Below are positions 13,366-54,806 of a DNA stretch of 64,000 bases, piece by piece. The stretch is from positions 3,596,001 to 3,660,000 of the forward strand of contig NC_013530.1 in the NCBI RefSeq assembly GCF_000024965.1. The letters run 5' to 3'. The stretch is from Xylanimonas cellulosilytica DSM 15894. Lineage in GTDB: Bacteria > Actinomycetota > Actinomycetes > Actinomycetales > Cellulomonadaceae. The notes under the pieces are model-generated. The model worked only from the letters and a program-made list of their open reading frames with translations. It did no database searches and was not told the DNA's origin. A program made the translations under genes and the position numbers. The number at the start of each line of letters is the position of its first letter. Position 1 is the first letter of the stretch.

Positions 13366-14942
13366 CCACCCCGGACCTCCCCCTCGGCGACCCCGGGGCG
13401 GCGAGCGGCCCGCCCGCCGGCCTCTCGCCGGTGCGTGCTGAGGGCCCCCACGCTGACGGCCCACACACCGCCCGTCCCCTCGCGGGCCACGCTGAGGGCC
13501 CCCACGCTGACGGCCCGCGCACCGCCCGTCTCCTCGCGGGCCGCACGGTGCTCATCACGCGCGCGCCGGACCGTGCACACTCACTCGCGGACCTGCTGGA
13601 GCGCCTGGGCGCGCGCGTCGTCGTCGCACCGGTGACGACGACCGCGCCCCCCGCGTCTCCCGCGGCGCTGGACGCGGCGGTGCGATCCCTCGACGACTAC
13701 GCCTGGGTGGCCGTGACGAGCGTCAACGCCGTCGACGCCCTGCGCGACGCCGCCGCCCGCACGGCAACCCCCCTCTCCCCCGGCCTGTCAGGTGCAGGGC
13801 GCGGCGGGGCCCCCGGAGCGCCTGACACCGCGGGCACCCCCTCAGGCATGTCAGGTGCTGAGCGCACCCGAGCCCCCGGAGCGCCTGACACCGCGGGCAC
13901 CCCCTCGGGCATGTCAGGTGCTGAGCGTGCCCTGCCCCCCGGAGCGCCTGACAACTCGTTGGCGGCCGCCCAGCCGTCGATGGGCGCCAGCGGGCCGCGG
14001 TGGGCCGCCGTCGGCCCGGCGACGTCGCGCGCTCTGCACGCCGCGGGAGTCCCGGTATCGCTGGAGGCCACCGGCACGGCCACGGACCTGGCCGCCCGCT
14101 TCCCCGCCCCACCGAACCTGTCAGACCCACGCAAGACCCCACCCTTGCCAGCGTCTGACAGGCGCGAGGACCACGACGGGTTGTCAGAGGGACGCGAGAC
14201 CCCACCCTTGCGAGCGTCTGACACCTTCGACGCGCGCGAGCTGTCAGGCGCACAGGGCGCCATGCTCCTCCCAGCGCCTGACAACGAGGATGCACGCGAA
14301 CTGTCAGGCGCTCCGGGGGGACAGGTTCGCCCAGCACCTGACATGCCCGAGGGGGTACCCGCGGTGTCAGGTGCGCAGGGTGGTTCGCCGCCCCCTGCAC
14401 CTGACAAGCCAGGGGTGGCGGTCACCGGGGCGGGGCGGAGTCGGCGGGTGTTGTTGCCGCTCGGGGACCTTGCGCGGAGCGTGCTCGCCGACGGGTTGCG
14501 CGCCGCCGGGTGGGACGTCCACGCCGTCGTCGCCTATCGGACCGTTCCGCTCGCGCTGCCCGACGACGTCGTCGACGCGGCGTGGGGTGGGACGATCGAC
14601 CTCGGCGTCGTCGCGGCCGGGTCCGCGGCACGCGAGCTTGCCCGGCAGCTCGGCGAGGCCGCACCGCCCGTCGTCGCCATCGGGCAGCCCTCCGCCGAGG
14701 CGGCCGTCGCGGCGGGACTCACCGTCGTCGGCGTCGCCGAGCGTCCTACCGACGACGCCCTCGCCGCCGCGCTGGTGGCGGCCGCGGGCGGCACGGTCCA
14801 CGGCGCTGCGGTCCTCGACACTGGGGACCTCGGGGCCGCGGACCTCGACACTGCGGTCCACGGCGCTGCGGTCCACGGCGCGGCACCGACCACGGGCCCA
14901 GCGTCCACGCACACAGCACCGACCACGAGGAGTGACACGTGA
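13362..14942 (+). CDS. hemD: Uroporphyrinogen-III synthase inflated by four repeat blocks
   Basis: This enzyme closes and inverts ring D of hydroxymethylbilane. The product is 526 residues, about twice the usual 250-270. The excess is four inserted or repeat-derived parts: residues about 26-61 (two 18-residue copies), 142-197 (three 42-bp units), 253-349 (five 42-bp units) and 479-526 (His/Ala/Thr-rich tail). Removing them leaves about 265 residues with [69 protein letters not shown] and [14 protein letters not shown] in normal HemD order. The family is weakly conserved, so operon position is a main support. GTG start overlaps hemC, and the stop overlaps hemB. The insertions keep frame throughout, so the gene is not a pseudogene by sequence. 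Confidence 0.9.
13437..13544 (+). repeat. 54-bp tandem duplication in the hemD 5' end
   Basis: Copies at 13437-13490 and 13491-13544 both begin GCTGAGGGCCCCCACGCTGA and differ at only a few positions. They encode two 18-residue copies starting AEGPHADGP. Being a multiple of three, the duplication is frame-neutral. It is unrelated in sequence to the 42-bp units. Confidence 0.9.
13786..13953. repeat. Family B array, three 42-bp palindromic units in hemD (block 1)
   Basis: Units at 13786-13827, 13849-13890 and 13912-13953 each begin TGTCAGGTGC and end GCGCCTGACA. The period is exactly 63 bp, with a nearly identical 21-base linker. The arms can pair over ten positions with one G-T wobble. In frame each unit reads LSGA...GAPD. 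Confidence 0.95.
14119..14406. repeat. Family B array, five 42-bp palindromic units in hemD (block 2)
   Basis: Units start at 14119, 14182, 14242, 14302 and 14365, each exactly 42 bp. The first two end in TCTGACA and carry an inner GCAAG/CTTGC or GCGAG/CTTGC stem. The last three end in CCTGACA, with arms extended to GCGC or GTGC types. Periods are 63, 60, 60 and 63, all multiples of three. Confidence 0.95.
14797..14890 (+). repeat. Low-complexity repeats in the hemD 3' end
   Basis: GGTCCACGGCGCTGCGG and CTCGACACTG recur several times, coding for [20 protein letters not shown] and similar. This makes a tail after the HemD core. Confidence 0.8.
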
Positions 14943-15994
14943 GCACGAACGGGGCAGCGATCGTCTACCGGCCGCGGCGGTTGCGGGCCACGCCGCGCAT
15001 GCGGCGGCTCGTCGCCGAGAACCGGCTGCACGCGGCCGACCTGGTGCTGCCGCTGTTCGTCAAGGAAGGGCTGAGCGAGCCCGCGCCCATCACCTCCATG
15101 CCTGGGCAGGTGCAGCACACGCTCGACACCCTGCGCGACGCCGTCGAGGCGGCCGCCCGCGCGGGGCTCGGCGGCGTGATGCTGTTCGGGATCCCCGCGG
15201 TGCGCGACGCCGTCGGGTCCCAGGGCGACGCGCCCGACGGGATCCTGCAGCGCGGGATCGCCGTCGCGCGGGCGGCGGTGGCCGAGGTGGAGGCGGAGAC
15301 CGGGCGGCCCGGGCCAGTCGTCATGGCGGACACGTGCCTGGACGAGTTCACCGATCACGGGCACTGCGGGGTGTTGGTCTCGACAGGCGGGGTGGTTTCG
15401 ACAGGCTCAACCACCGCCGGGCGCGGCGCCGTCGAGGTCGACAACGACGCCACGCTGGAGCGGTACGCATCGATGGCCGTCGCGCAGGCGCGCGCGGGCG
15501 CCGAGATCGTGGCCCCGAGCGGCATGATGGACGGGCAGGTCGCCGTGATCCGCGATGCGCTCGACGATGCCGGGTTCACAGGCGTCAGCATCCTGGCCTA
15601 CTCCGCGAAGTACGCGAGCCCGTTCTACGGGCCTTTCCGCGAGGCTGTGGACAGCGCGCTGCAGGGCGACCGCCGCACGTACCAGATGGACGCCGCGAAC
15701 CTGCGCGAAGGGATGCGCGAGGCCGACCTGGACCTGGCCGAGGGCGCCGACATCGTCATGGTCAAGCCAGCGGGCTCGTACCTCGACGTGCTGCGCGGCG
15801 TCGCCGACCGCTCCGACGTGCCCGTCGCGGCGTACCAGGTCAGCGGCGAGTACGCGATGATCGAGGCTGCCGCGGCCAACGGCTGGATCGCCCGCGAGGC
15901 GTCGATCCTGGAGTCCGTCACGAGCATCAAGCGCGCCGGCGCGGACATCATCCTCACCTACTGGGCCCTGGAGATCGCGAAGTGGATCAAGTGA
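14939..15994 (+). CDS. hemB: Delta-aminolevulinic acid dehydratase (porphobilinogen synthase) with a repeat insert
   Basis: This enzyme condenses two 5-aminolevulinates to porphobilinogen. The 351-residue protein has VLPLFVKEG near the start, catalytic lysines K224 ([10 protein letters not shown]) and K276 ([10 protein letters not shown]), and [18 protein letters not shown] between them. The metal-loop motif is [14 protein letters not shown] with C133 and C143; the middle cysteine of the three-Cys zinc type is replaced by D. Right after HGHCGVL comes about 16 extra residues ([17 protein letters not shown]) coded by one partial and one full family A unit, then the normal [11 protein letters not shown]. 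This insert sits in the lid/metal loop of the active site. GTG start overlaps hemD, and the stop overlaps hemL. Confidence 0.94.
15391..15415. repeat. Family A unit inside hemB
   Basis: One complete reverse-orientation unit, preceded at about 15374-15388 by a truncated one (TTGGTCTCGACAGGCGG). It codes for VVSTGSTT next to the metal-binding loop. Confidence 0.93.
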
Positions 15995-17301
15995 CAGCAA
16001 CGACCAACCACGAGGCGTTCGTCCGCGCCCAGGCCGCCATCCCGGGCGGCGTGAACTCCCCCGTGCGCGCGTACCGCTCGGTGGGCGGCGACCCCCGCTT
16101 CCTCGCGCGCGCCCAGGGCGCGTACGTGTACGACGTCGCGGGCCGCGAGTACGTGGACCTGGTGTGTTCCTGGGGCCCGGCGCTGCTGGGGCACGCACAC
16201 CCGGAGGTGGTCGCCGCCGTGCAGGAGGCCGCCGCACGCGGCCTGTCCTTCGGGGCGCCCACGCTCGCCGAGGTGGAGCTCGCGGAGGAGGTCCGACGAC
16301 GCGTGCCGGCCGCCGAGCGCGTGCGCCTGGTGTCCACCGGCACCGAGGCGACGATGACGGCGATCCGCCTCGCGCGCGGGGTCACGGGCCGCCCGCTGAT
16401 CGTGAAGTTCGCGGGCAACTACCACGGGCACGTCGACGCGCTGCTGGCCGAGGCAGGCTCCGGCGTCGCGACCCTGGCGATGCCGGGCACCGCGGGTGTC
16501 ACCGCGGCGTCGGCGGCCGAGACGCTGGTGCTGCCGTACAACTCGCTGGAGGCCGTGGAGGCGGCGTTCGAGGCGCGCGGCGACCAGATCGCCGCCGTCA
16601 TCGTCGAGGCCGCCCCCGCCAACATGGGCGTGGTGCCGCCCGCCCCGGGCTTCAACGCGGGGCTCCGGGCGATCACCGCCGCGCACGGTGCGCTGCTGAT
16701 CCTCGACGAGGTGCTCACCGGGTTCCGCGTCGGGCCGGCGGGCCACTGGGGGCTGGAGGGCGGCTTCACCCCCGACCTGTTCACGTTCGGCAAGGTCATC
16801 GGCGGCGGGATGCCCGTCGCCGCCCTCGGCGGCCCGACCGCGATCATGTCCCAGCTCGCCCCCGAGGGCCCGGTGTACCAGGCGGGCACGCTGTCCGGGA
16901 ACCCCGTCGCCGTCGCGTCCGGCCTGGCCACGCTCCGCCTCGCCGACGACGCCGTCTACGCGCACGTCGACCGCGCGGCCGCCGCCCTGTCGCGCGAGGT
17001 GGGCTCGGCGCTCGACGCCGCCGGTGTCCCCCACCGCGTCCAGCACGCCGGCAACCTGTTCAGCGTGTTCTTCGGCGAGGCTGCGGTGTCGTCGGGCGTG
17101 CGCGACTACGCCGACGCCCAGCAGCAGGACGGGTTCCGCTACAACGCCTTCTTCCACAGCATGCTGGACGCGGGGGTGAACCTGCCGCCGTCGGTCTTCG
17201 AGGCGTGGTTCCTCTCGGCGGCGCACGACGACGCGGCGCTCGACCGGATCGTCGCGGCGCTGCCTGCGGCCGCGCGTGCGGCGGCGGCCGCACAGCCGTA
17301 G
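15991..17301 (+). CDS. hemL: Glutamate-1-semialdehyde 2,1-aminomutase
   Basis: This PLP enzyme turns glutamate-1-semialdehyde into 5-aminolevulinate, directly downstream of HemA in the pathway. The 436-residue protein has [19 protein letters not shown] at the start, [29 protein letters not shown] and [13 protein letters not shown]. The PLP lysine is K268 in [16 protein letters not shown] start overlaps the hemB stop (GTGA), so hemC-D-B-L form one coupled run. No repeat has inserted here. The 3' end converges with an AMIN-like lipoprotein gene after four bases, with no terminator hairpin visible. Confidence 0.95.
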
Positions 17302-17305
17302 CCCG

Positions 17306-18001
17306 TCAGGGGTGGGCGACGTCCACCACGAGGCGCAGCGGGTCGTGGTGCAGCTCCGCGGTGACCTGCGGCTCGCCGTCGCCGACGACGCCGAGGAACA
17401 CGTTGAGGTTGCCCTCGGACCAGAAGCGCACGGCGACCTGGGCGAGCGCGGCGCCGTCGACGTCGAGGAGCTGCGGCTCGATCTGGGCGTGCTCGGCGTC
17501 CACCGGGAACTCCATCCCGGCGAGGCGCAGCAGCACGAACTGGTCGCCCTCGACCTCGACGGGGAAGCCGGAGCCGTCGTCGGACGCGGTCTCGACCACT
17601 TCAACACCCCACCCGGGCTCGCCCGTGCCGGCGAGGTCCAGGACGAGGCGGTCGACGCCGTCGAGCAGCTCGGTGCGTGCGCCGGTGACGGTCAGGGCGG
17701 CGTCGGCGCTGGGTGGGGAGTCGAGCCACCACCAGACGTCGTCGAGGACTGCCGCGGCCGCGGACTCGCGCGCGGTGAGCTCGCCGTGAATCGTCCGCTC
17801 CTCGGCGGCGAGCCGCTCGGCCGCCTCCTCCGCCAGCTCCGCCTCGGTCGCCGCATCTGCCGCGTCTGCCGCGGCCAGCTCGTCCGCCACGGACGCGGCG
17901 GCGGCGTCGGGCAGGCCGGAGGACGGGGCAGTGCACCCGGAAGCGAGCAGGGACACGGCCATGACCGACGCTGCGGCCGCGAGCCGGAGTCTGGTGCGCA
18001 T
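17306..18001 (-). CDS. AMIN-like domain lipoprotein
   Basis: The ATG at 18001 gives a signal peptide, MRTRLRLAAAASVMAVSLL, and a lipobox LASGC, so the 231-residue protein should be lipid-anchored outside the membrane. Residues about 25-70 are Ala/Glu-rich and probably helical. The C-terminal half holds DRLVLDLAGTGEPGWGVEVV, a DGSGFPVEVEGDQFVLLRL stretch and a final LRLVVDVAHP. This is the pattern of the actinobacterial AMIN-like domain, thought to bind envelope components. An earlier in-frame ATG at 18049 is rejected because it would bury the signal peptide. The role is unknown. Confidence 0.75.
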   Translation of the reverse strand: MRTRLRLAAAASVMAVSLLASGCTAPSSGLPDAAAASVADELAAADAADAATEAELAEEAAERLAAEERTIHGELTARESAAAAVLDDVWWWLDSPPSADAALTVTGARTELLDGVDRLVLDLAGTGEPGWGVEVVETASDDGSGFPVEVEGDQFVLLRLAGMEFPVDAEHAQIEPQLLDVDGAALAQVAVRFWSEGNLNVFLGVVGDGEPQVTAELHHDPLRLVVDVAHP

Positions 18002-18163
18002 CGTTGCTCCCAGGGAGTGAGGTGCCGAAACACGTGCAGTTTTACGCAATCTTGGCCAAAACTCGACTCCCGGTCACACAGCAAGACGATCCTGGCGCCC
18101 GGTGCGGCCTCACGGCGGCGTCCGCGCGGCGCGCCGCGTCGTCGGGCAGGCTGCGTCGACCGG

Positions 18164-18190
18164 TTGACAACTACCCCCAGGGGGTATAGA
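18164..18190 (+). promoter_or_regulatory. CsoR-type operator overlapping the copper operon promoter
   Basis: TTGACA at 18164-18169 is a clean -35 box, and TATAGA at 18185-18190 is a possible -10 with a short 15-base spacer. Between them lies the palindrome TACCCCC-A-GGGGGTA (18172-18186), the G/C-tract pattern known for CsoR operators. Copper release of CsoR would de-repress csoR-copZ-copA. This is inferred from the family and site. Confidence 0.75.
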
Positions 18191-18198
18191 CCGGAGTC

Positions 18199-18504
18199 AT
18201 GACCGAGCACAGCCACGACGCCGCCCACGGCTACGCCTCCGACAAGGAGGCCTACCTCAAGCGCATGCGCCGCATCGAGGGGCAGGTGCGCGGCATCGCC
18301 CGCATGATCGACGAGGACGTCTACTGCATCGACATCCTCACGCAGGTGTCCGCAGTCAAGAGCGCGCTCCAGGCCGTCAGCCTCGCGCTCGTCGAGGACC
18401 ACCTCGGGCACTGCGTCGTCGACGCCGCCAGGCAGTCCGACGACGCGGGCGCCGAGAAGGTGCGCGAGGCCGCCGAGGCCATCGGCCGGCTCGTGCGCAG
18501 CTAG
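18199..18504 (+). CDS. csoR: Copper-sensing repressor CsoR
   Basis: The 101-residue all-helical DUF156-type regulator has the expected Cu(I) ligands: C43 (VYCIDIL), H68 and C72 (EDHLGHC). The helix-1 motif YLKRMRRIEGQVRGIARMI is typical. Apo-CsoR binds the palindrome immediately upstream and leaves on Cu(I) binding. The gene is first in an operon with copZ (30-bp gap) and copA. The N terminus is short and has extra histidines (H4, H6, H10) whose role is unclear. Confidence 0.93.
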   Translation: MTEHSHDAAHGYASDKEAYLKRMRRIEGQVRGIARMIDEDVYCIDILTQVSAVKSALQAVSLALVEDHLGHCVVDAARQSDDAGAEKVREAAEAIGRLVRS

Positions 18505-18534
18505 TACCGACCCACTCTTTCGGAGGATCTCCCG

Positions 18535-19017
18535 ATGACGACTCTCACCACCCTCTCCGTGACCGGCATGACCTGCGAGCACTGCGTCGCCGCGGTCAGC
18601 CGCGAGCTCAAGGCCGTCGACGGCGTCAAGCGCGTCTCCGTCGAGTTGCGCAACGGCGGCACGTCCTCCGTCTCCGTGCACTCGGGCGCCCCGCTCGACG
18701 AGGCCGCGCTGCGCGAGGCGATCGACGAGGCCGGCTACGACGTCGTCGGCATCGACGTGCTCGAAGACGCCCTCACGGCACAGATGACCGAACGCGCCGA
18801 CGCGTACCGCGCGACAGGCGTGCGGACGGTGGACGACGCGGCGGCGCCGGCGGCTGCGGCTGAGGTGGCGGCGCCCGACGCGACGCCTGAGGCGGCACCT
18901 GAGGCGGAGGCGCCCGAGGCGGCCGCCGAGAGGCAGCACGGCGGTTGCGCGTGCGGCTGCGGCGGCCACGGCCGCCAGGGCCTCGGCATCGGCCTGCCGA
19001 TCGTCCCGCTGAACTGA
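18535..19017 (+). CDS. copZ: Copper chaperone CopZ-like, with a Cys/His-rich tail
   Basis: Residues 1-70 form a heavy-metal-associated domain with the GMTCEHC motif (C14, C17), which carries Cu(I) to the CopA ATPase. CopZ proteins are normally about 70 residues. This one is 160, with an Ala/Glu-rich linker and a C-terminal segment QHGGCACGCGGHGRQG that has three cysteines in CxCxC spacing plus histidines. The tail could be an extra metal site. The GGAGG ribosome site precedes the ATG. It lies between csoR and copA, which supports the role. Confidence 0.9.
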   Translation: MTTLTTLSVTGMTCEHCVAAVSRELKAVDGVKRVSVELRNGGTSSVSVHSGAPLDEAALREAIDEAGYDVVGIDVLEDALTAQMTERADAYRATGVRTVDDAAAPAAAAEVAAPDATPEAAPEAEAPEAAAERQHGGCACGCGGHGRQGLGIGLPIVPLN

Positions 19018-19028
19018 CTCCTTCCGGG

Positions 19029-19090
19029 GTTCGGCAGTTCGTCGCGAGCTCGGCACTCCGCACTGCCGATCCGGTACCGGACTGCCGAAC
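19029..19090. repeat. Inverted repeat between copZ and copA
   Basis: GTTCGGCAGT at 19029-19038 and ACTGCCGAAC at 19081-19090 are perfect ten-base complements. Further copies of CACTGCCGA and CTTGCCGAA and a CGGTACCG palindrome lie inside or just after. The hairpin could reduce copA relative to copZ, as a partial terminator or processing site. There is no U-tract. Confidence 0.5.
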
Positions 19091-19156
19091 GCCCGGCATC
19101 TTGCCGAACACACCCCGCGCGGCACCATCACGCTTTCGACCACGAATCGAGTGAGC

Positions 19157-21811
19157 ATGAGCACCGACACCGACACCCCCGTGCGTGAGGTCGACCTCGA
19201 CGTCACCGGGATGACGTGCGCGTCCTGCGTAGCACGAGTCGAGCGCAAGCTGCAGAAGCTGCCCGGCGTCATCGCCACGGTCAACCTCCCGCTCGAGAGC
19301 GCGCACGTCGTCCTGACCACCGACGTCGACGACGACGCCCTCGTGGCCGCCGTCGAGTCGGCGGGGTACGGGGCGGCGGTCACCGGGTCGCGCGTTCCGG
19401 GCGGTCACCGGCCGGAGGCTGCCCCGCCGGCCGTACGCGAGGCCACCTCCGCCGCACACGCGCACGCTGAGCCCGCGACCACAGAGCCCTCGACCGGAGA
19501 GCCCAGCGCGGAGGAGCCCGAACCCGAACCCTTCGACGGTGGCCCGCACGCCGGCCACCACGGTTACGCGGGCGACATCGACCTGCGCGGGCACGACCTC
19601 CGGCGCCGGCTGGTGGTCGCGGCCGTGCTGAGCGTGCCCGTCGTCGCCATCTCGATGGTGATGCCGTTGCAGTTCCCGGGCTGGGGCTGGGTCGTGGGTG
19701 CCCTCGCGCTGCCGGTCGCCACCTGGGCGGGCTGGCCGTTCCACCTCGCCGCGTTCAAAGCCGCACGCCACGGCACGTCGACCATGGACACGCTCGTGTC
19801 GATCGGCGTGATCGCGGCGACGTTGTGGTCGTTCGTCGAGCTGTCGCTGGGGCGGATGCACGGGGTCTACTTCGAGGTCGCCGTCGTCGTCGTCACGTTC
19901 CTGCTCGCAGGGCGCTGGGCCGAGCACCGCTCGCGGCGCCGCGCCGGGGACGCCCTGCGGACGCTGCTCGCGCTGGGGGCCAAGGAGGCCGAGCGGGTCA
20001 CGCTCACCGGGTCCGGGGAGCCGGTCCGGCGGGCCGACGGCGCCTGGGACACCACCCTGGTGGCCGTCGAGGACCTGCACGTCGGGGACGTGTTCACGGT
20101 GCGCCCCGGGGCGACGGTGGCCACGGACGGCAGCGTCGTCGACGGGTCCTCCGCCGTCGACACCTCGCTCGTCACCGGCGAACCGGTGCCGGTGGACGTG
20201 ACCGTGGGCGACGCCGTCGTCGGCGGCACCGTCAACACCGCGGGGCACCTGCTGGTGCGCGCGACGCGGGTCGGTGCCGAGACGACGCTCGCCCGCATCG
20301 GGCGGCTCGTGGCCCAGGCGCAGACGGGCAAGGCCCCGATCGCGCGCCTCAGCGACCGCATCTCGGCCGTGTTCGTGCCGATCGTCCTGGTGCTCGCGAT
20401 CCTCACCCTGGCGGGGTGGCTGATCGCGACCGGCGACGTCGAGCACGCCTTCATGGCGGCCGTCGCGGTGCTGATCATCGCCTGCCCGTGCGCCCTGGGG
20501 CTCGCGACGCCGACGGCGATCCTCGTGGGTACGGGCCGGGGCGCGCAGCTCGGCGTGCTCATCAAGGGCCCGGAGGTCCTGGAGCGCACCCGCACCATCG
20601 ACACGGTGGTGCTCGACAAGACGGGCACGGTCACCGAGGGCCGCATGGTCCTGGAACGCGTCACCCCTTCCGCGGGTGTCGACGCCGCCGAGGCGCTGGC
20701 CTACGCGTCCGCCGTCGAGGCGCTCAGCGAGCACCCCATCGCCCAGGCGATCGCGGCCGCGCGCCCCACCGCCTCCCCCGCCGAGTTGTCAGAGCGTGGC
20801 AAGCATGGGGACTTGCGTGGATCTGACACGGCAGATGCCCTCGCCGACATTGGGTTGTCAGAGGGTGGCAAGGGTGGGGACTTGCGTGCGTCTGACACGG
20901 CAGATGCCCTCGTTGGGTTGTCAGAGCGTGGCGAGGGTGAGGGCTTGCGTGCGTCTGACAAGGCGACGGGTGGCGACGGCGACGGCGCGGGGGCCGGCGG
21001 AGCCAGCGCGGCCGGTGGGTTGGAGGTCAGTGGGTTCCGGGCCGTTCCCGGGGGCGGCGTCGAAGGGGTCGTGCGGGTTGCGCACTCCGGGCTCTCCCCC
21101 GCGGGCGCGCTCAACTCGCGCCGCGTCGTCGTCGGGCGTGTGACCTGGCTCGCCGCGCAGGGCATCAGCGTCGACGACGACGTCGCGGCCGCCGTCGAGC
21201 GCGCGGAGACCGGAGGCGCGACCACCGTCGTCGTGGCGTGGGACGGTGCCGCCCGTGCGGTGCTCGAGCTGCGCGACCCCGCCAAGCCGACGTCGGCGCA
21301 GGCCGTCGCCGAGCTGCGCGCGCTCGGGCTGCGGCCCGTGCTGCTGACCGGCGACGGCGAGGGAGCCGCACGTGCTGCCGCTGCCGCAGTCGGCATCGAC
21401 CCGGACGACGTCGTCGCCCGCGTGCTTCCCGAGGAGAAGGCCGCTGCGGTGACCCGCCTGCAGGGCGAGGGCCGCGTGGTCGCGATGGTGGGCGACGGGA
21501 TCAACGACGCCGCGGCCCTGGCGTCCGCCGACCTAGGCCTGGCGATGGGCACCGGCACCGACGTGGCCATGGAGGCGAGCGACATCACCCTGGTGCGCGG
21601 CGACCTGCGCGCCGCCGCGAGCGCCGTGCGCCTCTCGCGTCAGACCCTGCGCGTCATCAAGCAGAACCTGTTCTGGGCGTTCGCGTACAACGTCGCGGCG
21701 ATCCCGCTCGCGGCGGCCGGGGTGCTCAACCCGATGATCGCGGGTGGCGCGATGGCGGCGTCGTCGGTGCTGGTCGTGGCGAACTCGCTGCGCCTGCGCC
21801 GCGCGGGCTGA
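19157..21811 (+). CDS. copA: Copper-exporting P1B-type ATPase with a repeat-filled N-domain loop
   Basis: This 884-residue pump has one N-terminal HMA domain (GMTCASC, C21/C24), a disordered His/Glu-rich linker, and membrane helices with the CPC metal site at residues 443-445. The actuator motif is SLVTGEPVP, D487 in DKTGT is phosphorylated, the nucleotide-domain HP is in SEHPIAQ, and the hinge is GDGINDA. Residues about 544-601, between the HP helix and FRAVPGGGVEGVV, are coded by three 42-bp family B units. These give LSERG...LRGSD-type repeats, followed by a Gly/Ala-rich run. This enlarges a surface loop of the N-domain without breaking any motif. ATG at 19157 is chosen over GTG at 19151; both fit. 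Confidence 0.95.
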   Translation: MSTDTDTPVREVDLDVTGMTCASCVARVERKLQKLPGVIATVNLPLESAHVVLTTDVDDDALVAAVESAGYGAAVTGSRVPGGHRPEAAPPAVREATSAAHAHAEPATTEPSTGEPSAEEPEPEPFDGGPHAGHHGYAGDIDLRGHDLRRRLVVAAVLSVPVVAISMVMPLQFPGWGWVVGALALPVATWAGWPFHLAAFKAARHGTSTMDTLVSIGVIAATLWSFVELSLGRMHGVYFEVAVVVVTFLLAGRWAEHRSRRRAGDALRTLLALGAKEAERVTLTGSGEPVRRADGAWDTTLVAVEDLHVGDVFTVRPGATVATDGSVVDGSSAVDTSLVTGEPVPVDVTVGDAVVGGTVNTAGHLLVRATRVGAETTLARIGRLVAQAQTGKAPIARLSDRISAVFVPIVLVLAILTLAGWLIATGDVEHAFMAAVAVLIIACPCALGLATPTAILVGTGRGAQLGVLIKGPEVLERTRTIDTVVLDKTGTVTEGRMVLERVTPSAGVDAAEALAYASAVEALSEHPIAQAIAAARPTASPAELSERGKHGDLRGSDTADALADIGLSEGGKGGDLRASDTADALVGLSERGEGEGLRASDKATGGDGDGAGAGGASAAGGLEVSGFRAVPGGGVEGVVRVAHSGLSPAGALNSRRVVVGRVTWLAAQGISVDDDVAAAVERAETGGATTVVVAWDGAARAVLELRDPAKPTSAQAVAELRALGLRPVLLTGDGEGAARAAAAAVGIDPDDVVARVLPEEKAAAVTRLQGEGRVVAMVGDGINDAAALASADLGLAMGTGTDVAMEASDITLVRGDLRAAASAVRLSRQTLRVIKQNLFWAFAYNVAAIPLAAAGVLNPMIAGGAMAASSVLVVANSLRLRRAG
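20787..20960. repeat. Family B array, three 42-bp units in copA
   Basis: Units start at 20787, 20856 and 20919 and are each exactly 42 bp, beginning TGTCAGAG and ending TCTGACA. An inner GCAAG/CTTGC stem is present in the first two. The third has GCGAG/CTTGC, a G-T wobble. Periods are 69 and 63. Confidence 0.95.
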
Positions 21812-21838
21812 CCCAGCACCCCGGCCTTCCGCCCGACG

Positions 21839-22122
21839 TGTCAGGGGGACAGCGCGCTGGGCACCTCCATCGACCTGACACGGCACCACCCCACCCCGGC
21901 TGTCAGGCCCAGCGCGCGGTGGACGGCGCGGCCCTCCTGACACGGCACCACCCCACCCCGGCTGTCAGGCCCAGGGGGCGGTGGAGAACGCGGTGGGGCT
22001 GCCCCCCGAGTGCGCGTGCTGTCAGGGGGACAGCGCGCTCACGAGCGCGGTGGGCCTGACACGTGTCCAGGCGTCGGCGCTGTCAGGTGGGTGGCGGCGT
22101 CCGGTGCGCGGTGGGGCTGACA
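21839..22122. repeat. Family B intergenic array, five units, filling the 380-bp gap after copA
   Basis: The gap 21812-22191 holds no gene. Units start at 21839, 21901, 21963, 22020 and 22081. Four are exactly 42 bp with intact TGTCAGG and CTGACA ends. The third has a degenerate right end. Periods are 62, 62, 57 and 61, unlike the multiples of three seen in genes. The remaining sequence up to the CPBP start has short GGGTGCCCAGCCGGGTGC-type direct repeats. Confidence 0.93.
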
Positions 22123-22191
22123 GGGCGTCCCCGGCGGGGTGCCCAGCCGGGTGCACAGCCGGGTGCCAGGCGGGCGGCCTAGCCTGGGGGC

Positions 22192-23073: not shown

Positions 23074-23083
23074 GGCGCGGGCG

Positions 23084-23181
23084 GGTGGTTTCGACAGGCT
23101 CAACCACCGGGGGGCGCAGCCACCGGGGTGGTTTCGACAGGCTCAACCACCGGTGGGGCGGGGGTTGAGCCTGTCGAAACC
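23084..23181. repeat. Family A cluster between convergent CPBP and ABC ATPase genes
   Basis: Units at 23084-23108 and 23127-23151 are in reverse orientation, and a forward core copy is at 23163-23181. The last ends one base before the ATPase gene's terminal TCA (23182-23184). Confidence 0.93.
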
Positions 23182-25967: not shown

Positions 25968-25968
25968 G

Positions 25969-27012: not shown

Positions 27013-27022
27013 GAGAGGGTCG

Positions 27023-28675: not shown

Positions 28676-28722
28676 GGTGGGTCCCCTCTCGAAGTCCGCG
28701 GTGATGCCCCGCGGTGCGGAGG

Positions 28723-28752
28723 TTCTAACACGAAAGATTCACGTTTGGACAA
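28723..28752 (-). promoter_or_regulatory. Predicted promoter of the ABC importer operon
   Basis: On the minus strand TTGTCC (28747-28752) and TTAGAA (28723-28728) are separated by 18 bases, and the substrate-binding protein ATG is about 48 bases downstream. The region is noticeably AT-richer than its surroundings. Confidence 0.45.
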
Positions 28753-28837
28753 TCTCGCTGGCGTTCGTGATGACACCGTGACACCCGGACACGCCAACCC
28801 CCGGCCCAGCCCACACCACCGACCTACACTGCAGGAC

Positions 28838-31417
28838 ATGCCCGAGACGGTCCCTCCTGGCGCGCCTGCAACCCCTTCGGGTCCGCAGACCGCTGCCCTG
28901 CGGGCCGTGCTCTTCGACGAGGCGGCCCCGCCCGACTCGGAGCTGGTCCGCGTCGTCGACACGCCTGAGCGCCGCGTGCGCCACCCGTCCGACGTCGTGG
29001 GGATGATCGCCTCGGCGCTGGGGATCGCGCTGGTGCTGGTGCTGTCCGTCGTCGCGCACGGCACCACGCAGGGCGTGACGGAGGACGTCCAGGACTTCGC
29101 GACGGTGCTCGGGCAGCTCCTCGTGGTCCCCGTCAACGTGCTCGAGGGTCTGGTCACCATCGTCCTGCCCGTCGCCGTGCTCATCGAGCTCGGCGTGCGC
29201 CGGCTGGGCCGGCAGGTCGTCGAGTCGATCGCCGCGGCCGCGTTGGGCCTGGTCATGGGCGTCCTCGCGCTGGTGCTGGTCCGCGAGTTCGGGTCGCCCG
29301 AGTTCATCGGCGGCCTGTCGATCACCGATGGCAAGAACGCCAGCCACCTGGCCATCCCGGCCTACGTCTCGGCGGTCGCCGCGATGCTGACCGTCGCCGG
29401 GCCGCGCACGCGCCGTCGGACGGTGCGGTGGTCCTGGAACGTGCTGATCATCGCGCTGCTCGTCGTGCTCATCACCAACCAGGTGTCCCTGCCGGGCGCC
29501 CTGCTGACGCTGCTGCTGGGCCGGCTCGCGGGGCAGGCCGTGCAGTACCTCTCCGGGGTGCGTTCCGAGCGTGCGTACGGTCCCGCGCTGGTCCAGGCGG
29601 TGCGCCGGGCTGGCTTCCGCCCGACGGCGCTGGTGCGCGTGCGCGACCTCGGGACGGCGTCGGGCGTCGACGACCTCGGGCGCATCGAGGACGTCGTCGC
29701 CGTCACCCGGTCCTCGGACCCGGCCGCCGTCGCGCTCACCCGGGCGGGCGACAACCGCGTCTACGCGATGGTCGACGACGACGGCGTCCGCCGCGACGTC
29801 GTCGTGCTCGACGGCGACCGGCAGGTCGTGGGCGCCGTGACCCGGATGTGGCAGGCGCTGCGCATGCGCGGGCTCGAAGGCCGCGCCGAGATCTCCCTCA
29901 AGTCCGTCGCCGAGCGCACCGCGCTGCTGTCCTACGCGGCCGCGGGCGCGGGCGTGCGCACCCCCCGGCTGCTGGGCATCGGCATGGCCGAGGACTCCGC
30001 GGCGCTCGTGCTGGAGCACGCCCGCGGTGCCGTCTCCCTGCGCGACCTGCCCGACGTCGAGCTGGAGGGCGAGCGCGGCGACGCCGTGCTCGCCGAGGCG
30101 TGGGAGCAGCTGCGCCGGGCGCACACGGCCGGGCTCACCCACCACCAGCTCACCTCCGACGTGCTGCTCGTCCACCGCGATGAGGACGACGACCCGCACG
30201 TGTGGATCACCGGCTGGGAGCAGGGCGAGATCGCCTCCTCCACGCTCGCGCGGCGGCTCGACCTCACCCAGCTCCTCTCGCTGCTGGCGCTGCGGGTCGG
30301 GGCACGCCGCGCCGTCGCCAGCGCCGTGAAGGCCCTGCCGGACAGCGACATCGGCGCCATCGGCCCCCTGCTGCAGACCATCGCGCTGCCCACCGACACG
30401 CGCGTCGAGATGCGGCGCGCCAAGGGCCTCATCGACGAGCTGCGCACCGCGATCGTCGAGCGCCTGCCCGAGGCGAGCGTCCAGCCCACGCGCCTCGCCC
30501 GGTTCGGGGCGCGCACCGTCATCATGCTGACGCTCACGATCGTGGCCGTCGTCGCCGTCGTCACCACCATCAACTTCGACGAGATCCAGACCGCGCTCGG
30601 CGACGCCAACCCGTGGTGGATGGCGGTGTCGTTCGCCCTCGCGGGGATCACCTGGTTCGGGGCGGCGCTGACCCTCGTGGCGTTCACCCCGGGCAAGGTG
30701 CCGATCCTGCGGGCCACGCTCGCGCAGATGGCCGGGTCGTTCGTCGCGCTCGCCACCCCCGCCGGCATCGGGCCCGCCGCGCTCAACCTGCGGTTCCTGT
30801 CGCGGCGCGGCGTCTCCGTCCCGATGGCCGTCGCGACCGTCGCCCTCGTGCAGATCTCGCAGGTCGTCGTCACCGTCGCGCTGCTCATCGTCATCTCGCT
30901 CGCCAGCGGGTCGGGCGCCCTGGTGCAGCTCCCCTCGACGACGATCCTGCTCGCCGTCGCCATCACCGCCGTCGTCGTCCTCGCGCTGCTGCTGGTGCCG
31001 TGGGTGCGGCGCTGGGCCTGGGACAAGGCCCGGCCGACGCTCGAACAGGTGTGGCCCCGCCTGTCGCAGATGCTCGGGCAGCCCACCCGGCTGGCCGCCG
31101 GCCTGGGCGGCAACGTCATCATGACCATGGGTTACGTGCTGGCGTTCGACGCCGCCCTGCACGCGTTCGGGCACCGGCTGAGCATCGTCGACGTCGCCGT
31201 CGTGTACCTGGTGGGCAACACCATCGGTGCCCTCATCCCGACGCCCGGCGGCCTCGGCGGCGTCGAGGCCGCCCTCGTCGGCGGCCTCACCGCGGCCGGC
31301 ATCCCGTCCGCCATCGCCGTGTCGGTGACGTTCCTCTTCCGCTTCGTGTCGTACTGGGTCCGCGTCCCCATCGGCTGGATGGCCATGCGCTATCTGGAGA
31401 AGAAGAACGACCTGTAA
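28838..31417 (+). CDS. Membrane protein fusing a kinase-like domain to a flippase-like (LPG synthase TM) domain
   Basis: The protein has 859 residues. The N-terminal third has about six membrane helices. The middle (about residues 270-500) resembles a degraded protein-kinase fold: LLSYAAAGAGVRTPRLLG, AALVLEHARG, and HTAGLTHHQLTSDVLLVH in place of a catalytic HxD loop. The catalytic aspartate and DFG are not evident, so it is probably a pseudokinase. The C-terminal part is the lysylphosphatidylglycerol synthase TM/UPF0104 family (PF03706), with MAGSFVALATPAGIGPAALNLRF and NTIGALIPTPGGLGGVEAAL. The start is ATG 28838, just after a TACACT -10-like box, so the transcript may be nearly leaderless. 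A lipid-flipping role is inferred. Confidence 0.8.
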   Translation: MPETVPPGAPATPSGPQTAALRAVLFDEAAPPDSELVRVVDTPERRVRHPSDVVGMIASALGIALVLVLSVVAHGTTQGVTEDVQDFATVLGQLLVVPVNVLEGLVTIVLPVAVLIELGVRRLGRQVVESIAAAALGLVMGVLALVLVREFGSPEFIGGLSITDGKNASHLAIPAYVSAVAAMLTVAGPRTRRRTVRWSWNVLIIALLVVLITNQVSLPGALLTLLLGRLAGQAVQYLSGVRSERAYGPALVQAVRRAGFRPTALVRVRDLGTASGVDDLGRIEDVVAVTRSSDPAAVALTRAGDNRVYAMVDDDGVRRDVVVLDGDRQVVGAVTRMWQALRMRGLEGRAEISLKSVAERTALLSYAAAGAGVRTPRLLGIGMAEDSAALVLEHARGAVSLRDLPDVELEGERGDAVLAEAWEQLRRAHTAGLTHHQLTSDVLLVHRDEDDDPHVWITGWEQGEIASSTLARRLDLTQLLSLLALRVGARRAVASAVKALPDSDIGAIGPLLQTIALPTDTRVEMRRAKGLIDELRTAIVERLPEASVQPTRLARFGARTVIMLTLTIVAVVAVVTTINFDEIQTALGDANPWWMAVSFALAGITWFGAALTLVAFTPGKVPILRATLAQMAGSFVALATPAGIGPAALNLRFLSRRGVSVPMAVATVALVQISQVVVTVALLIVISLASGSGALVQLPSTTILLAVAITAVVVLALLLVPWVRRWAWDKARPTLEQVWPRLSQMLGQPTRLAAGLGGNVIMTMGYVLAFDAALHAFGHRLSIVDVAVVYLVGNTIGALIPTPGGLGGVEAALVGGLTAAGIPSAIAVSVTFLFRFVSYWVRVPIGWMAMRYLEKKNDL

Positions 31418-31465
31418 GGGCCTGAGCAGCGCACACGCTGCGGCACCTTGCCGCTGCAGCTAGCC

Positions 31466-31481
31466 GTGAACTACAGTTCAC
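31466..31481. promoter_or_regulatory. Palindromic operator of the toxin-antitoxin pair
   Basis: GTGAACT-AC-AGTTCAC is a perfect seven-base inverted repeat ending two bases before the toxin ATG. TACAGT inside it may be the -10 box, which would make the message leaderless. No ribosome site precedes the ATG. Repression by the helix-turn-helix antitoxin is the likely function. Confidence 0.65.
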
Positions 31482-31483
31482 AC

Positions 31484-31786
31484 ATGGTCGAAGTTGTCCG
31501 CACTGGCACCTTCGACCGCTGGCTTCGCAACCTCAAGGACCGCCGGGCACGTGCGCGCATCCAGGTCCGCATCGACCGCCTCAGGTCGGGAAACCCTGGA
31601 GACGTCAAGACCGTCGGGCACGGCGTGTCCGAGCTGCGGATCCACTTCGGCCCCGGATACCGGGTGTACCTGCTCCAGCAGGACAACACCTACGTCGTTC
31701 TGCTCTGCGGCGGCGACAAGAGCAGCCAAGCGAGCGACATCGCCACCGCCCGCAGCCTCGCCGACGAATGGAGGACCAGATCATGA
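31484..31786 (+). CDS. RelE/HigB-type toxin
   Basis: This 100-residue protein has the compact RelE/ParE superfamily shape of the addiction-module killer family: FDRWLRNLKDRRARARIQVRIDRLRSGNPGD, then SELRIHFGPGYRVYLLQQ, and a final VVLLCGGDKSSQASDIATA. Members usually cleave mRNA at the ribosome. The toxin gene comes first and the antitoxin second, as in HigBA. The stop codon overlaps the antitoxin ATG (ATGA). The start is ATG 31484; no Shine-Dalgarno sequence precedes it. Confidence 0.88.
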   Translation: MVEVVRTGTFDRWLRNLKDRRARARIQVRIDRLRSGNPGDVKTVGHGVSELRIHFGPGYRVYLLQQDNTYVVLLCGGDKSSQASDIATARSLADEWRTRS

Positions 31787-32082
31787 ACGCCGAAGAGACG
31801 TTCGACCGCTACGACAGTGCCGATTACCTCACCGACGCGGACGACGCTGCCGCATACCTGGAGGCGGCTCTGGAGGAGGCCGGCGACGACCCCGCCTTCA
31901 TCGCCCAGGCGCTCGGGACCATCGCCCGCTCGGGCAACATGAGCGAACTCGCTCGCCGCGTCGGAGTCTCTCGCGAAGGCCTCTACAAGGCCCTCGCCTC
32001 CGATGGGAACCCCAGCTTCGCAACAGTCGTCAAGGTCGCCAAGGCACTCGGGCTGTCCATCCACTTCGAGCCCGCGGCCTGA
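31783..32082 (+). CDS. HigA-type antitoxin (helix-turn-helix)
   Basis: The 99-residue protein has an acidic N-terminal half (ADDAAAYLEAALEEAGDDPAF), likely the toxin-binding part. An HTH follows in the C-terminal half (MSELARRVGVSREGLYKALASDGNPSFATVVKVAKALGL). It is the probable repressor of the palindrome at 31466-31481. A GAGGACC ribosome site within the toxin gene and the ATGA overlap indicate coupled translation. Confidence 0.88.
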   Translation: MNAEETFDRYDSADYLTDADDAAAYLEAALEEAGDDPAFIAQALGTIARSGNMSELARRVGVSREGLYKALASDGNPSFATVVKVAKALGLSIHFEPAA

Positions 32083-32110
32083 CCTCCGCAAACGCTGAGC
32101 AGACATGCGA

Positions 32111-32142
32111 CGGCCCGCCCCCGCCGTGGCGGGGGCGGGCCG
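32111..32142. terminator. Bidirectional hairpin between antitoxin and HU genes
   Basis: A perfect 15-base stem with a two-base GT tip (CGGCCCGCCCCCGCC and its complement) lies between the convergent antitoxin and HU genes, six bases after the HU stop. It has no U-run, but stems like this serve as terminators in GC-rich actinobacteria. Confidence 0.75.
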
Positions 32143-32148
32143 GTCAGC

Positions 32149-32430
32149 TCACTCGGAGACGGCCTTCTTCAGGACCGAACCGGCGGAGACCTTCACGCCG
32201 AAGCCGGCGGGGATCTGGATCTCCTCGCCCGTGCGTGGGTTGCGACCCGTGCGGGCGGCACGCTCGACGCGCTCGATCGAGAGCAGGCCCGTGAGCTTCA
32301 CGGCCTCGCCCTTGGCGAGCGACTCGACGAGCACCTCCTGGAACGCGTTGAGCGCGTCCTCGGCCTGAGCCTTGGTGAGCTCAGACTTGGCAGCGATCGC
32401 CGAGACGAGCTCGGACTTGTTGAGCGACAT
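32149..32430 (-). CDS. hup: HU family nucleoid protein
   Basis: The 93-residue protein matches HU along its length: MSLNKSELVSAIAAKSELTK, the helical body, then the beta-arm region RAARTGRNPRTGEEIQIPA that grips the DNA minor groove. It lacks the long lysine/alanine-rich tail found in many actinobacterial HU proteins such as mycobacterial HupB, so it is the short form. The ATG has a GAAGGGA ribosome site. Expression is probably monocistronic, ending in the strong hairpin downstream. Confidence 0.95.
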   Translation of the reverse strand: MSLNKSELVSAIAAKSELTKAQAEDALNAFQEVLVESLAKGEAVKLTGLLSIERVERAARTGRNPRTGEEIQIPAGFGVKVSAGSVLKKAVSE

Positions 32431-32524
32431 GCGATTCCCTTCGTTGTCACGTGCTCCACGGCGTATCGCCGGGAGACTGGAGCCACCTTAGGGAACTTCG
32501 GCAGAAATCCGCGACTTCTCGCGG

Positions 32525-33637
32525 TTGTGTCTGACTGGTGGTGCCGCATGGCGTTGCGGCGGCTGTCGCCGCGTTCGCCGCGCGCGTCCGTCCGAGCGGG
32601 GTCACGATGGGGCAGATCCGCCTCGGGAGGTCCCCCTGCGCCGTGCTCGTCCGTGGTCCGTCGGCGCCGTCGTCGTCACGACGACGGCGTTGCTGGTCGT
32701 CGCCACCAGCAGGCCCGACGGCGCGACGGCGCCCACACCGGACCCGCGACCGGCCGCCGTCACGCTCGTGCAGGTCATGGCGCCCGACGACGCGGCGTCA
32801 CGCGGCACGGACCGACGGGTCCCGGACGCGGAGACAGCCGAACGGACGGCGGCCGGGCGGACGACCGACCGGCGGGCGGCGGGGACTGCCGTCGACCGCG
32901 ACGGCAACGGGCTGAGCCGTGCGGACCTCGCGTGGGCGCAGCGCCTGACCGCGCAGGCGGAAGCCTGGTTCCGGGCGCACCCGGAGGCGGTCCCCTCGGC
33001 CGAGCCATCGAGCTCACCGTCGCCGTCGCCGACACCCTCACCGACCGCGGAGGCCCCGCCCGAGGCTGCGGCACCGGAGCCGGACGAGCCGGCGGTCACG
33101 AAGACGCCGGGCGCGACGAAGCCTGCCGTCGTCGACGAACCGGTCGCGCCCGAGCCCGCCGCGCCGGCCCCGGAACCACCCGTCGAGCAGCCGCCCGCCG
33201 AGGCCCCGCCGGAACCGGCGCCCGCGCCCCCGGACTACCGCGCCGAGGCCGAAGCGTTCCTCGACACCCTGCCGGGCGGGGCGACGGCGACGATCGAGTG
33301 GGGTGACCCGAACGGCCACCTGGGCGGGGTGTGGATCCCCGGCTCGGAGACGATCATCCTCAACGCGGCGCGCCTCGACGGGCGCCTGGAGCGCACCAAG
33401 GACGTGCTGCGGCACGAGATCGGTCACGTGCACCAGAACCGCGCGATGGCGGCAGCGGGAGTGTCGCTGGCCGACTTCGAGGCACGCCTGGACGCCCTCT
33501 TCGACGGCCAGGGCATCGAACGCTCCGCGGACGCGATCGCCCTGCTGCTGGGCGCCGGCTCCGTCCGCTACTCCAGCTCGTTCACGGACGCCCAGTACGA
33601 CGCAGCCCGCACCCTCCTACAAGACCGCATCCCCTGA
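32525..33637 (+). CDS. Membrane-anchored protein with Pro-rich linker and HExGH metallopeptidase-like domain
   Basis: The conserved part is C-terminal: VLRHEIGHVHQN (HExxH zinc motif), followed about 30 residues later by IERSADAIALLL, which could supply a third ligand in an ExxAD pattern. Before it come a predicted membrane helix (WSVGAVVVTTTALLVVATS), a variable region and a long Pro/Ala/Glu linker (about residues 155-240), so the domain should sit outside the cell. The start is uncertain. The frame opens at 32492 and contains no ATG or GTG before the helix. The TTG at 32525 is the only standard candidate, and it has no ribosome site. The substrate is unknown. Confidence 0.65.
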   Translation: MCLTGGAAWRCGGCRRVRRARPSERGHDGADPPREVPLRRARPWSVGAVVVTTTALLVVATSRPDGATAPTPDPRPAAVTLVQVMAPDDAASRGTDRRVPDAETAERTAAGRTTDRRAAGTAVDRDGNGLSRADLAWAQRLTAQAEAWFRAHPEAVPSAEPSSSPSPSPTPSPTAEAPPEAAAPEPDEPAVTKTPGATKPAVVDEPVAPEPAAPAPEPPVEQPPAEAPPEPAPAPPDYRAEAEAFLDTLPGGATATIEWGDPNGHLGGVWIPGSETIILNAARLDGRLERTKDVLRHEIGHVHQNRAMAAAGVSLADFEARLDALFDGQGIERSADAIALLLGAGSVRYSSSFTDAQYDAARTLLQDRIP

Positions 33638-33655
33638 CCCGTCCCGTGGCGGGAG

Positions 33656-34333
33656 TCAGTCTTGGCCGGGGGGGCCGAAGCCGCGCGTGCCGTTGCGGCG
33701 GCGAAGCATCAGGGCGACGACCGTGCCGACGATGGCGACGGCTGCGATCAGGCCGACGATCGGGCTGCGGCCCGGCGCCAGGGTCTCGGGGGCGGGGCTC
33801 GGGTCGGACGTCACGGCCGTGTCCGCCGGGGCGTCGGTCGCGGTCGGCTGGTCGCTCGCCGCGTCGTCGGACAGGGCTGCGATCGCCGGGGCGTCCGACG
33901 CCGCAGCGAGCGTCGGGTCCTCGGTCGGTTCGGGTGACGCCGTCGGTTCGGGCGCGGGGACTGCCAGCACGAACGTGAACGTCCCCTCGATCGGGTGCCC
34001 GTCGGACGAGACGGCGCGCCAGGCGACGTCGTAGTCGCCGTTCGCCAGGTCGGGCGGGAGCGGGACGGTGACCGTGACGCCGTCGACCTCCGGGGCGGGC
34101 GCGCCGACGTCGGCACCACCCGTGGTGACCACCACCTGGGTGCCCGTGTCGAGCACCGCGTCGCTGAACTCCAGCGTGAGCACGGCGGGCAGCACGTCGA
34201 GCGTGGCGCCGTCGGCGGGGTCGGAGGAGACGAGCCGGTCGTGGGCGCTCGCGGGGGTCGCGAGCCCGACGAGGGCGAGCCCCGCAGCCACCAGGGCGAG
34301 GAGAAGACGACGGGCCGAGAAGGCAGACGACAT
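33656..34333 (-). CDS. CopC-domain copper-resistance protein, membrane anchored
   Basis: The 225-residue protein has a signal peptide ending PASA, so the mature chain would begin with H, the usual CopC Cu(II) ligand. The CopC beta-sandwich follows (HDRLVSSDPADGATLDVLP, LEFSDAVL, AWRAVSSDGHPIEGTFTFVL), with a second conserved histidine in DGHP. A Ser/Ala/Asp/Pro-rich stalk and a single C-terminal helix (SPIVGLIAAVAIVGTVVALML) with RRR anchor it. No CopD is adjacent. It converges with the metallopeptidase across 18 bp that hold a small TCCCG/CGGGA hairpin. Confidence 0.88.
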   Translation of the reverse strand: MSSAFSARRLLLALVAAGLALVGLATPASAHDRLVSSDPADGATLDVLPAVLTLEFSDAVLDTGTQVVVTTGGADVGAPAPEVDGVTVTVPLPPDLANGDYDVAWRAVSSDGHPIEGTFTFVLAVPAPEPTASPEPTEDPTLAAASDAPAIAALSDDAASDQPTATDAPADTAVTSDPSPAPETLAPGRSPIVGLIAAVAIVGTVVALMLRRRNGTRGFGPPGQD

Positions 34334-34370
34334 GCCCGAAACCCTAGCCCGGCCCGGACCCCATCCGAGC

Positions 34371-34474
34371 TGTCAGAGGCCAGCGAGCGCAGGGACTCGC
34401 GTGCTTCTGACAGCTCCAGCAGGCCCCGGGGTTGTCAGAGCGTGGCAAGGGCGTGGGCTTGCCACCCTCTGACA
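34371..34474. repeat. Two family B units between divergent copC and nadE genes
   Basis: Units lie at 34371-34412 and 34433-34474, 42 bp each with a period of 62. The first has an inner GCGAG/CTCGC stem. The second has an inner GTGGCAAG/CTTGCCAC stem and outer TGTCAGAG/CTCTGACA arms, an almost perfect hairpin. The rest of this 223-bp gap shows no gene. Confidence 0.95.
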
Positions 34475-54662: not shown

Positions 54663-54806
54663 GGTGGTTGAGCTTGTCGAAACCACCCCGGTCCGTGGGG
54701 TGGTTTCGACAGGCTCAACCACCGGGGCGGCTCAACCACCGGGGGCGGGTGGACGCGTGGGGTGGTTTCGACAGGCTCAACCACCGAGGGCGGCTCAACC
54801 ACCGGG
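54663..54806. repeat. Family A cluster between convergent epimerase and anti-sigma genes
   Basis: A forward unit with one mismatch (AGCTTGTCG) lies at 54663-54687, and reverse units at 54699-54723 and 54761-54785. Truncated GGCTCAACCACCGGGG fragments lie near 54729 and 54792. Confidence 0.93.

Follow-up and report, generated by a model that had tools for sequence, protein, structure and literature searches.

Dispersed 42-bp palindromes in Xylanimonas cellulosilytica and a candidate AbiEi-like protein that may bind and spread them

The window analyzed here is a stretch of 64 kb from the genome of Xylanimonas cellulosilytica DSM 15894 (NC_013530.1:3,596,001-3,660,000, forward strand; the genome is coded G000 below). 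It contains members of a family of 42-bp palindromes that begin with TGTCAG and end with CTGACA. We propose, with a probability of roughly 0.6 for this being the full best explanation, that these palindromes are non-autonomous elements that would be bound and spread by the product of a gene situated elsewhere in the same genome, called X here. Judging by its modeled structure and conserved residues, X probably consists of a winged-helix DNA-binding part similar to AbiEi antitoxins and a nuclease part of the PD-(D/E)XK type. The proposal draws on comparisons of sequences: the length of the palindromes is fixed, their two halves are nearly independent of each other, they are associated with X genes and have a matching distribution, their motif differs with the X lineage, and the copies inside genes use a single frame.

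Results

A dispersed family of fixed length

An earlier note on this DNA, made from the letters of the window, had described 17 exact copies and one decayed copy, each 42 bp long, in four loci: hemD, copA, the gap after copA and the region upstream of nadE. Both the copies and the loci are borne out. TGTCAG-N30-CTGACA is matched 17 times in the window, versus a mean of 0.01 in shuffled sequences. The right end of the 18th copy, at 21963, reads CTGCCC, with two mismatches there, and a covariance model finds this copy with E 0.057 across model positions 4-39. Matches of the model at window positions 54675 and 55585 are weak (E 0.04) and were taken as chance.

The constancy of length suggested in the note extends to the whole genome, since 104 of 109 exact matches to the two hexamers separated by N20-40 have exactly N30, and the spacings are not spread around 42. 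Three of the other five are an identical 51-bp sequence with the same ends, which occurs in either orientation at C1:208427, 1453599 and 2603353 and is perhaps part of an insertion sequence. The symmetry of the palindromes continues slightly past 42 bp, with CGAG or CGAC on the 5' side and CTCG or GTCG on the 3' side. No target-site duplication, such as a MITE of a DDE transposon would show, was evident in flanks read by eye, a reading that such symmetric flanks confound.

The palindromes occur singly or in tandem. In the stretches fetched for comparison, tandem linkers are 19-21 bp long in 56 of 69 intergenic gaps (below 140 bp), and 25 of the 26 linkers scored as intragenic have a length divisible by three. 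Two further ideas about arrays were tried. That linkers are conserved and interiors hypervariable was dropped, as mean identity in 14 array triples is 0.82 versus 0.80 (0.74 versus 0.72 in the nine triples from G000). Helical phasing of 11 longer linkers is not claimed (p 0.83 at 10.5 bp, 0.40 at 11.0 and 0.03 at 10.0, uncorrected).

Protein X and the palindromes around its gene

One gene was singled out among shared neighborhoods, having palindromes on both sides in G000, G001, G013 and G019. In G000 this gene, X, lies outside the window (C1:2860469-2861404) between arrays of TGTCAG 42-bp palindromes, has a response regulator and an ABC transporter as neighbors, and encodes 311 amino acids. 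A structure model of the product (pLDDT 88), compared by Foldseek, matches AbiEi (6y8q, E 1.4e-5) and Rv2827c (1zel, E 2.3e-4), which points to an AbiEi-like N-terminus; PADLOC assigns residues 14-184 to AbiEi (PDLC02249, E 8.4e-17). Further along, four residues (E209, D241, E255, D257) do not vary across 32 aligned rows and make up an acidic motif of nuclease type, E..D..ExD. Foldseek matches to proteins with nuclease domains are weak (ACE1 0.038, R2 retrotransposon protein 0.043, TnsA 0.29; all above 0.001, with the aligned region not reported). X has no match above cut-off in Pfam or NCBIfam; some of its homologues have sub-threshold Pfam matches to DUF559 / REase_MTES_1575. No AbiEii nucleotidyltransferase toxin adjoins X in the neighborhoods read (G000; G032 and G015 by eye). 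Homologues were not found on plasmids. Phage records hold one, 36% identical, at MT837139.1:3682-4500 in an unannotated 7.6-kb Bacteriophage sp. sequence from human faeces.

A scan of GTDB genomes yielded 37 loci homologous to X, 30 of which have palindromes on both sides. TGTCAG 42-mers, with at most one mismatch allowed over both end hexamers, stand on both sides of 18 loci and on one side of two (L122, and L131, where the contig ends). Twelve of the remaining 17 loci have different palindromes on both sides: seven from Cellulomonas are flanked by CGTCCGCAC..GTGCGGACG palindromes, also 42 bp long, three from Pseudokineococcus by palindromes of 34-40 bp, and the last two are Phycicoccus L148 and L143. 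L141, L144 and L146 have just one flank with a palindrome; L145 and L149 are truncated. Flanking palindromes are detected by a strict automatic test in 25 of 33 X loci (four of the 37 were left out, their flanks being too short) versus none of 65 control intervals from the same loci. The test misses L115, L122, L125, L128, L134, L141, L144 and L146; four of these (L115, L125, L128, L134) are nonetheless flanked by TGTCAG 42-mers on both sides when one mismatch is allowed. Twelve of the 18 TGTCAG loci have two copies per side, with a spacing of 61-63 bp in 21 of 28 such pairs. The X reading frame itself ends on a palindrome-internal TGA in G001 and G013.

X together with its palindromes behaves as an insertion that is present or absent between conserved genes. 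The interval between the response-regulator and ABC genes (Pfam names) is about 1409-1789 bp long where it holds X (G000, G001, G019) and about 132-188 bp long at the empty sites of G005, G006 and G009. In G002 and G013 other genes are found instead of X: amylase-like and TetR-like frames, by eye, in the former (L150, C1:167000-171500) and a different short gene in the latter (L154, C71:2800-6500). Similar anatomy is seen in a second genomic setting, in G015 and G032, where the genes on either side of X look Pit-like and NUDIX-like by eye.

Matching distribution and paired motifs

The earlier note advised looking for a genome-encoded protein gene distributed like the palindromes, and X is such a candidate. 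Palindromes and X were surveyed in two samples of 150 genomes from the family, taken as the same sample; the X listing leaves 101 match-less genomes unlisted. With strong X defined by E<1e-60 and palindrome-rich genomes by at least five TGTCAG copies, both limits having been set after the data were seen, 21 of 22 genomes with strong X are palindrome-rich versus 16 of 128 others (Fisher p=1.1e-14, uncorrected for genome kinship). At E<=1e-20 the figures are 22 of 29 genomes with a match versus 15 of 121. G012 and G017 have 10 and 15 copies with no X found at E<=1e-10; a frame between two G017 palindromes 1.2 kb apart was considered and is oxidoreductase-like by eye, not X. No TGTCAG copy lies near the weak X homologue of G016, and no X lies near the single copy of G023.

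Different X genes are accompanied by different palindromes, even within one genome. Of the two X genes in G015, L125 is flanked by TGTCAG palindromes and L136 by CGTCCG palindromes, and the same genome contains 87 dispersed copies of the first type and 27 of the second. Cellulosimicrobium Marseille-Q4280 has the X paralogues L117 and L118, whose palindromes differ in their interiors. The Cellulomonas-type palindrome is likewise dispersed, with 21-38 copies in each of seven genomes and zero in G000, G009 and G184. In a Mantel test over 15 loci, motif distance correlates with distance in the winged-helix region (r=0.25, p=0.02 uncorrected, one of four tests); the values for other regions are close to 0.

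There is also a second, unrelated family of dispersed palindromes, TCGGAACGTG-N10-CACGTTCCGA, with 37 exact matches in G009, 16 in G001, many nested half-sites, and 0 matches in 13 other genomes. In G009, hemD contains this family, which also stands on both sides of a distant AbiEi-like gene (L105:2827-3798); another palindrome of the family is at L005:2491-2562 of that genome. Long near-perfect palindromes of other sequence (52 and 47 bp) occur at L005:1068-1119 and L005:19115-19161.

Two nearly independent halves

The earlier note took compensatory changes between the halves as a sign of a hairpin in DNA or RNA. The internal stems and arms that it quoted are correct, yet they are selected examples. 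Copies do covary when pooled: the pairing excess over shuffled halves has z=17.2 for five genomes together, and 80.5% of cells are paired in a mixed alignment of 63 sequences versus 68.8% after shuffling, a difference that looked strong until genomes and classes were separated. G000 on its own gives z=8.1, and it contains two motif classes, class A (A7 with C14-A16-G17) and class G (G7 with G14-G16). Inside these classes z is 3.0 for A and 1.0 for G, and the match of half to half is about that expected by chance, although positions 8-10 in class A exceed it somewhat. Other genomes give 0.0 (G015), 3.0 (G013) and 1.8 (G019). Because the excess shrinks in this way from pooled to within-class comparisons, most of the apparent covariation can be put down to motif classes having been mixed, with a small residue left over.

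A test by columns in 88 distinct copies of G000, out of 104, agrees. Pairing is clearly above column expectation only at positions 7, 14, 15 and 16, weakly so at 17, and near expectation at 8-13 and 18-21. At positions 8-12 the base type is conserved (G or C at 8-10 and 12, A or T at 11), but hardly the pairing partner. Mismatches on the coding strands of 54 intragenic copies comprise 23 G.T and 45 A.C, opposite to what an RNA hairpin predicts; the eight hemD copies have 8 G.T and 3 A.C, and 144 other copies, on an arbitrary strand, 95 and 82. Compensatory evolution of a hairpin was therefore mostly rejected. Near-independent halves that share a motif suggest instead a site read by two protein subunits on double-stranded DNA.

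Copies within genes and at shared positions

The survey of intragenic copies covers 206 exact copies in the fetched stretches, which hold part of the copies of G015, G013, G019, G012 and G017. Genes were called with a simple codon-score method of our own; it scored the window's hemD copies as intergenic, hence they are outside the counts that follow. All 54 intragenic copies, in 32 genes of seven genomes and six genera, share one frame, whichever the strand of the gene: NTG TCA G.. .. CT GAC A. One alternative frame is blocked by a TGA within the palindrome itself, and the other open frame would encode a peptide that contains cysteine and is less hydrophilic (hydropathy -0.17 versus -1.13 for the frame used). 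To account for this pattern, selection acting on the protein of the host can be enough.

In the window, where palindromes are given without strand and the three genes are all on the forward strand, eight copies lie within an open reading frame that ends as hemD (12654..14942). They form two arrays, one of three exact copies (13786..13827, 13849..13890, 13912..13953) and one of five (14119..14160, class A with GCAAG/CTTGC; 14182..14223; 14242..14283, class G; 14302..14343; 14365..14406). Two stretches of this frame match HEM4, and the better match (residues 596-704, profile positions 115-230) lies downstream of all eight palindromes. The N-terminal extension also contains two 54-nt tandem repeats that are 76% identical (13414-13521), possibly an older insertion of another kind. 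Three exact copies (20787..20828, 20856..20897, 20919..20960) are in frame within copA (19151..21811; HMA, E1-E2 ATPase and hydrolase domains). Five more follow copA, of which the third is the decayed copy (21963..22004) and the others are exact (21839..21880, 21901..21942, 22020..22061, 22081..22122). The last two exact copies (34371..34412, 34433..34474) are in the upstream region of nadE (34557..36605).

Some of these positions are shared with other genomes. Palindromes are present in hemD of G001 and G013 and at the end of that gene in G019, and in copA of G012 and G017; further shared sites are the upp/deaminase gap, ubiE and tilS in G013 and E2 in G015. In hemD of G005 and G006 the linkers are short where that of G000 holds eight palindromes, and none was seen at copA or upstream of nadE in the three congeners G005, G006 and G009. 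When a copy's own array is left out, the best-fitting motif is that of its own genome for 185 of 203 copies, including most of those at shared gene positions. This suggests that copies have been homogenized or re-inserted within each lineage.

Discussion

Proposed mechanism

What we infer beyond these observations is binding, cleavage, mobilization and the order of events. On double-stranded DNA, each 42-bp palindrome would be recognized by two X molecules. AbiEi-type antitoxins recognize paired 23-bp inverted repeats, with one monomer on each (PMC7319586). The 42-bp palindromes are consistent with sites of this kind: their halves measure about 17-21 bp, and they frequently form tandem pairs upstream of X. 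The palindromes near the X gene may serve as its operator and as the ends of the element, with X regulating itself via the upstream pair, and the dispersed palindromes would be non-autonomous elements spread by X in trans. X would probably cut or nick DNA at or near a bound palindrome, after which repair or copying may place another copy elsewhere. Copies that land in permissive linkers of proteins would survive only in frame. Of the earlier suggestion that a hairpin is selected or mobilized, a real dispersed family of fixed length has been kept and the hairpin mostly given up; mobilization enters as part of this proposal, not as an observation.

Several points weigh against the proposal. Transposition, target duplication and cleavage were not seen. 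Sixteen of the 128 genomes without strong X hold at least five copies, one of them 109; X may have been lost there, may have diverged beyond the reach of the search, or may not be needed. Conversely, G029 has strong X and zero TGTCAG copies. The genome counts are uncorrected for relatedness, motif distance follows the winged-helix region weakly and the whole protein not at all (Mantel r=-0.01), and the nuclease fold of X has weak support, the relevant Foldseek E values being 0.04-0.3. A nuclease that cuts intact palindromes would harm the host chromosome, and no protection is known. At shared positions, a few copies (the only ones of L082 and L015, and one of four in L073) fit the motif of another genome better, and a position common to several genera might also be an old site useful to the host.

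Alternative explanations

A rival reading is that the palindromes are a dispersed regulon or chromosome-organizing sites for X, kept for the benefit of the host, with X as a regulator whose nuclease part serves another role. Copies at orthologous loci of several genomes (hemD, copA, the upp/deaminase gap, ubiE, tilS, E2) speak for it, the 19-21 bp tandem spacing is one that cooperating sites might have, and AbiEi-type proteins are autorepressors (PMC7319586). The copy number, however, varies from 0 to 200 within Cellulomonadaceae and from 0 to 104 within one genus, many copies lie within unrelated enzymes, and three congeners do without those at copA and upstream of nadE. We consider such a role unlikely.

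More doubtful still is that X and its flanking palindromes are a homing-type or defence cassette, in which the palindromes are recognition or self-marking sites and their dispersal is secondary. PD-(D/E)XK nucleases are found in homing and restriction enzymes, AbiEi models belong to a defence library, and X is a present/absent insertion between conserved genes. A homing site is destroyed by insertion, though, whereas intact palindromes are plentiful in genomes with X; nor was a methyltransferase or AbiEii partner seen in the few neighborhoods read, mostly by eye.

That the palindromes are RNA or DNA hairpins selected for base pairing, the idea of the earlier note, is very improbable: the fixed length, the pairing in pooled copies and in the mixed alignment, the residual z in class A and G013 and the G.T excess in hemD agree with it, but the signal mostly vanishes within genome and class (G015, class G), A.C exceeds G.T on the coding strands of the 54 other intragenic copies, and positions 8-13 are almost without covariation.

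Implications

How short palindromes that lack a known transposase spread is a standing question, for instance with Rickettsia palindromic elements (RPE) and with REPs that carry a CGTC tag; X is a dedicated non-HUH candidate for the present family. If X does spread the palindromes, AbiEi-plus-nuclease proteins, which Pfam and NCBIfam do not match above cut-off, would gain a biological setting, and hydrophilic, probably disordered peptides would have a route into conserved enzymes. Since X occurs in culturable species, with matched pairs of enzyme and motif and natural empty sites, binding, cutting and gain of copies can be tested directly.

Comparison with known systems

The closest parallel is that of REPtrons, REP/REPIN elements with their RAYT. 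As there, short dispersed palindromes, single or in tandem, flank a dedicated enzyme gene (here an unrelated enzyme, at 30 of 37 loci), their number tracks the enzyme, and some copies lie inside genes. The earlier note had proposed to look for such a transposase, and none of 37 genomes of the same family has a Y1/HUH transposase (RAYT, PF01797), so that it was rejected as the spreader; among 59 relatives overall PF01797 is found in two, from other families, with 0 and 1 pattern matches. The GTAG tag of REPs is also absent from the flank profiles of G000 and G015, which have TGTCAG/CTGACA ends with CGAG../..CTCG on both sides. In place of these features there are an AbiEi-like enzyme with a nuclease motif and a symmetric site whose halves resemble protein half-sites.

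X shares with the AbiEi antitoxins (S. agalactiae AbiEi, Rv2827c) the fold, AbiEi being its best match, and paired inverted repeats upstream of the gene (PMC7319586). It differs in its additional C-terminal motif of nuclease type, in having no AbiEii neighbor in the contexts read, and in that its palindromes are found downstream and at dozens of other places as well. The C-terminal E..D..ExD pattern is that of DUF559 / REase_MTES_1575, although X homologues remain below the Pfam cut-offs for these families. To our knowledge such proteins have not been linked with dispersed palindromes, and literature searches gave no relevant paper.

With RPE the family has in common palindromes that lie in frame within protein genes. 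From RPE and the CGTC-tagged REPs it differs in its 42-bp length with symmetric ends, in its candidate dedicated enzyme and in belonging to another phylum; RPE were compared by description. CGTC repeats are apparently without a dedicated transposase (PMC3733652).

The earlier note did not recognize the family, and no description of it was found in the open-licence literature, judged from titles and abstract openings. It is for this reason, together with the failure of the REPtron tests (enzyme family and tag), and not on a proven mechanism, that we regard it as a new kind. On balance we lean towards a new class of mobile palindromes in bacteria that has no relation to REP/RAYT. Here an AbiEi-like domain joined to a PD-(D/E)XK nuclease would recognize and spread a double-stranded palindrome, also in frame into essential genes, and the class would comprise several diverged pairs of enzyme and palindrome in Actinobacteria, with different specificities in one genome.

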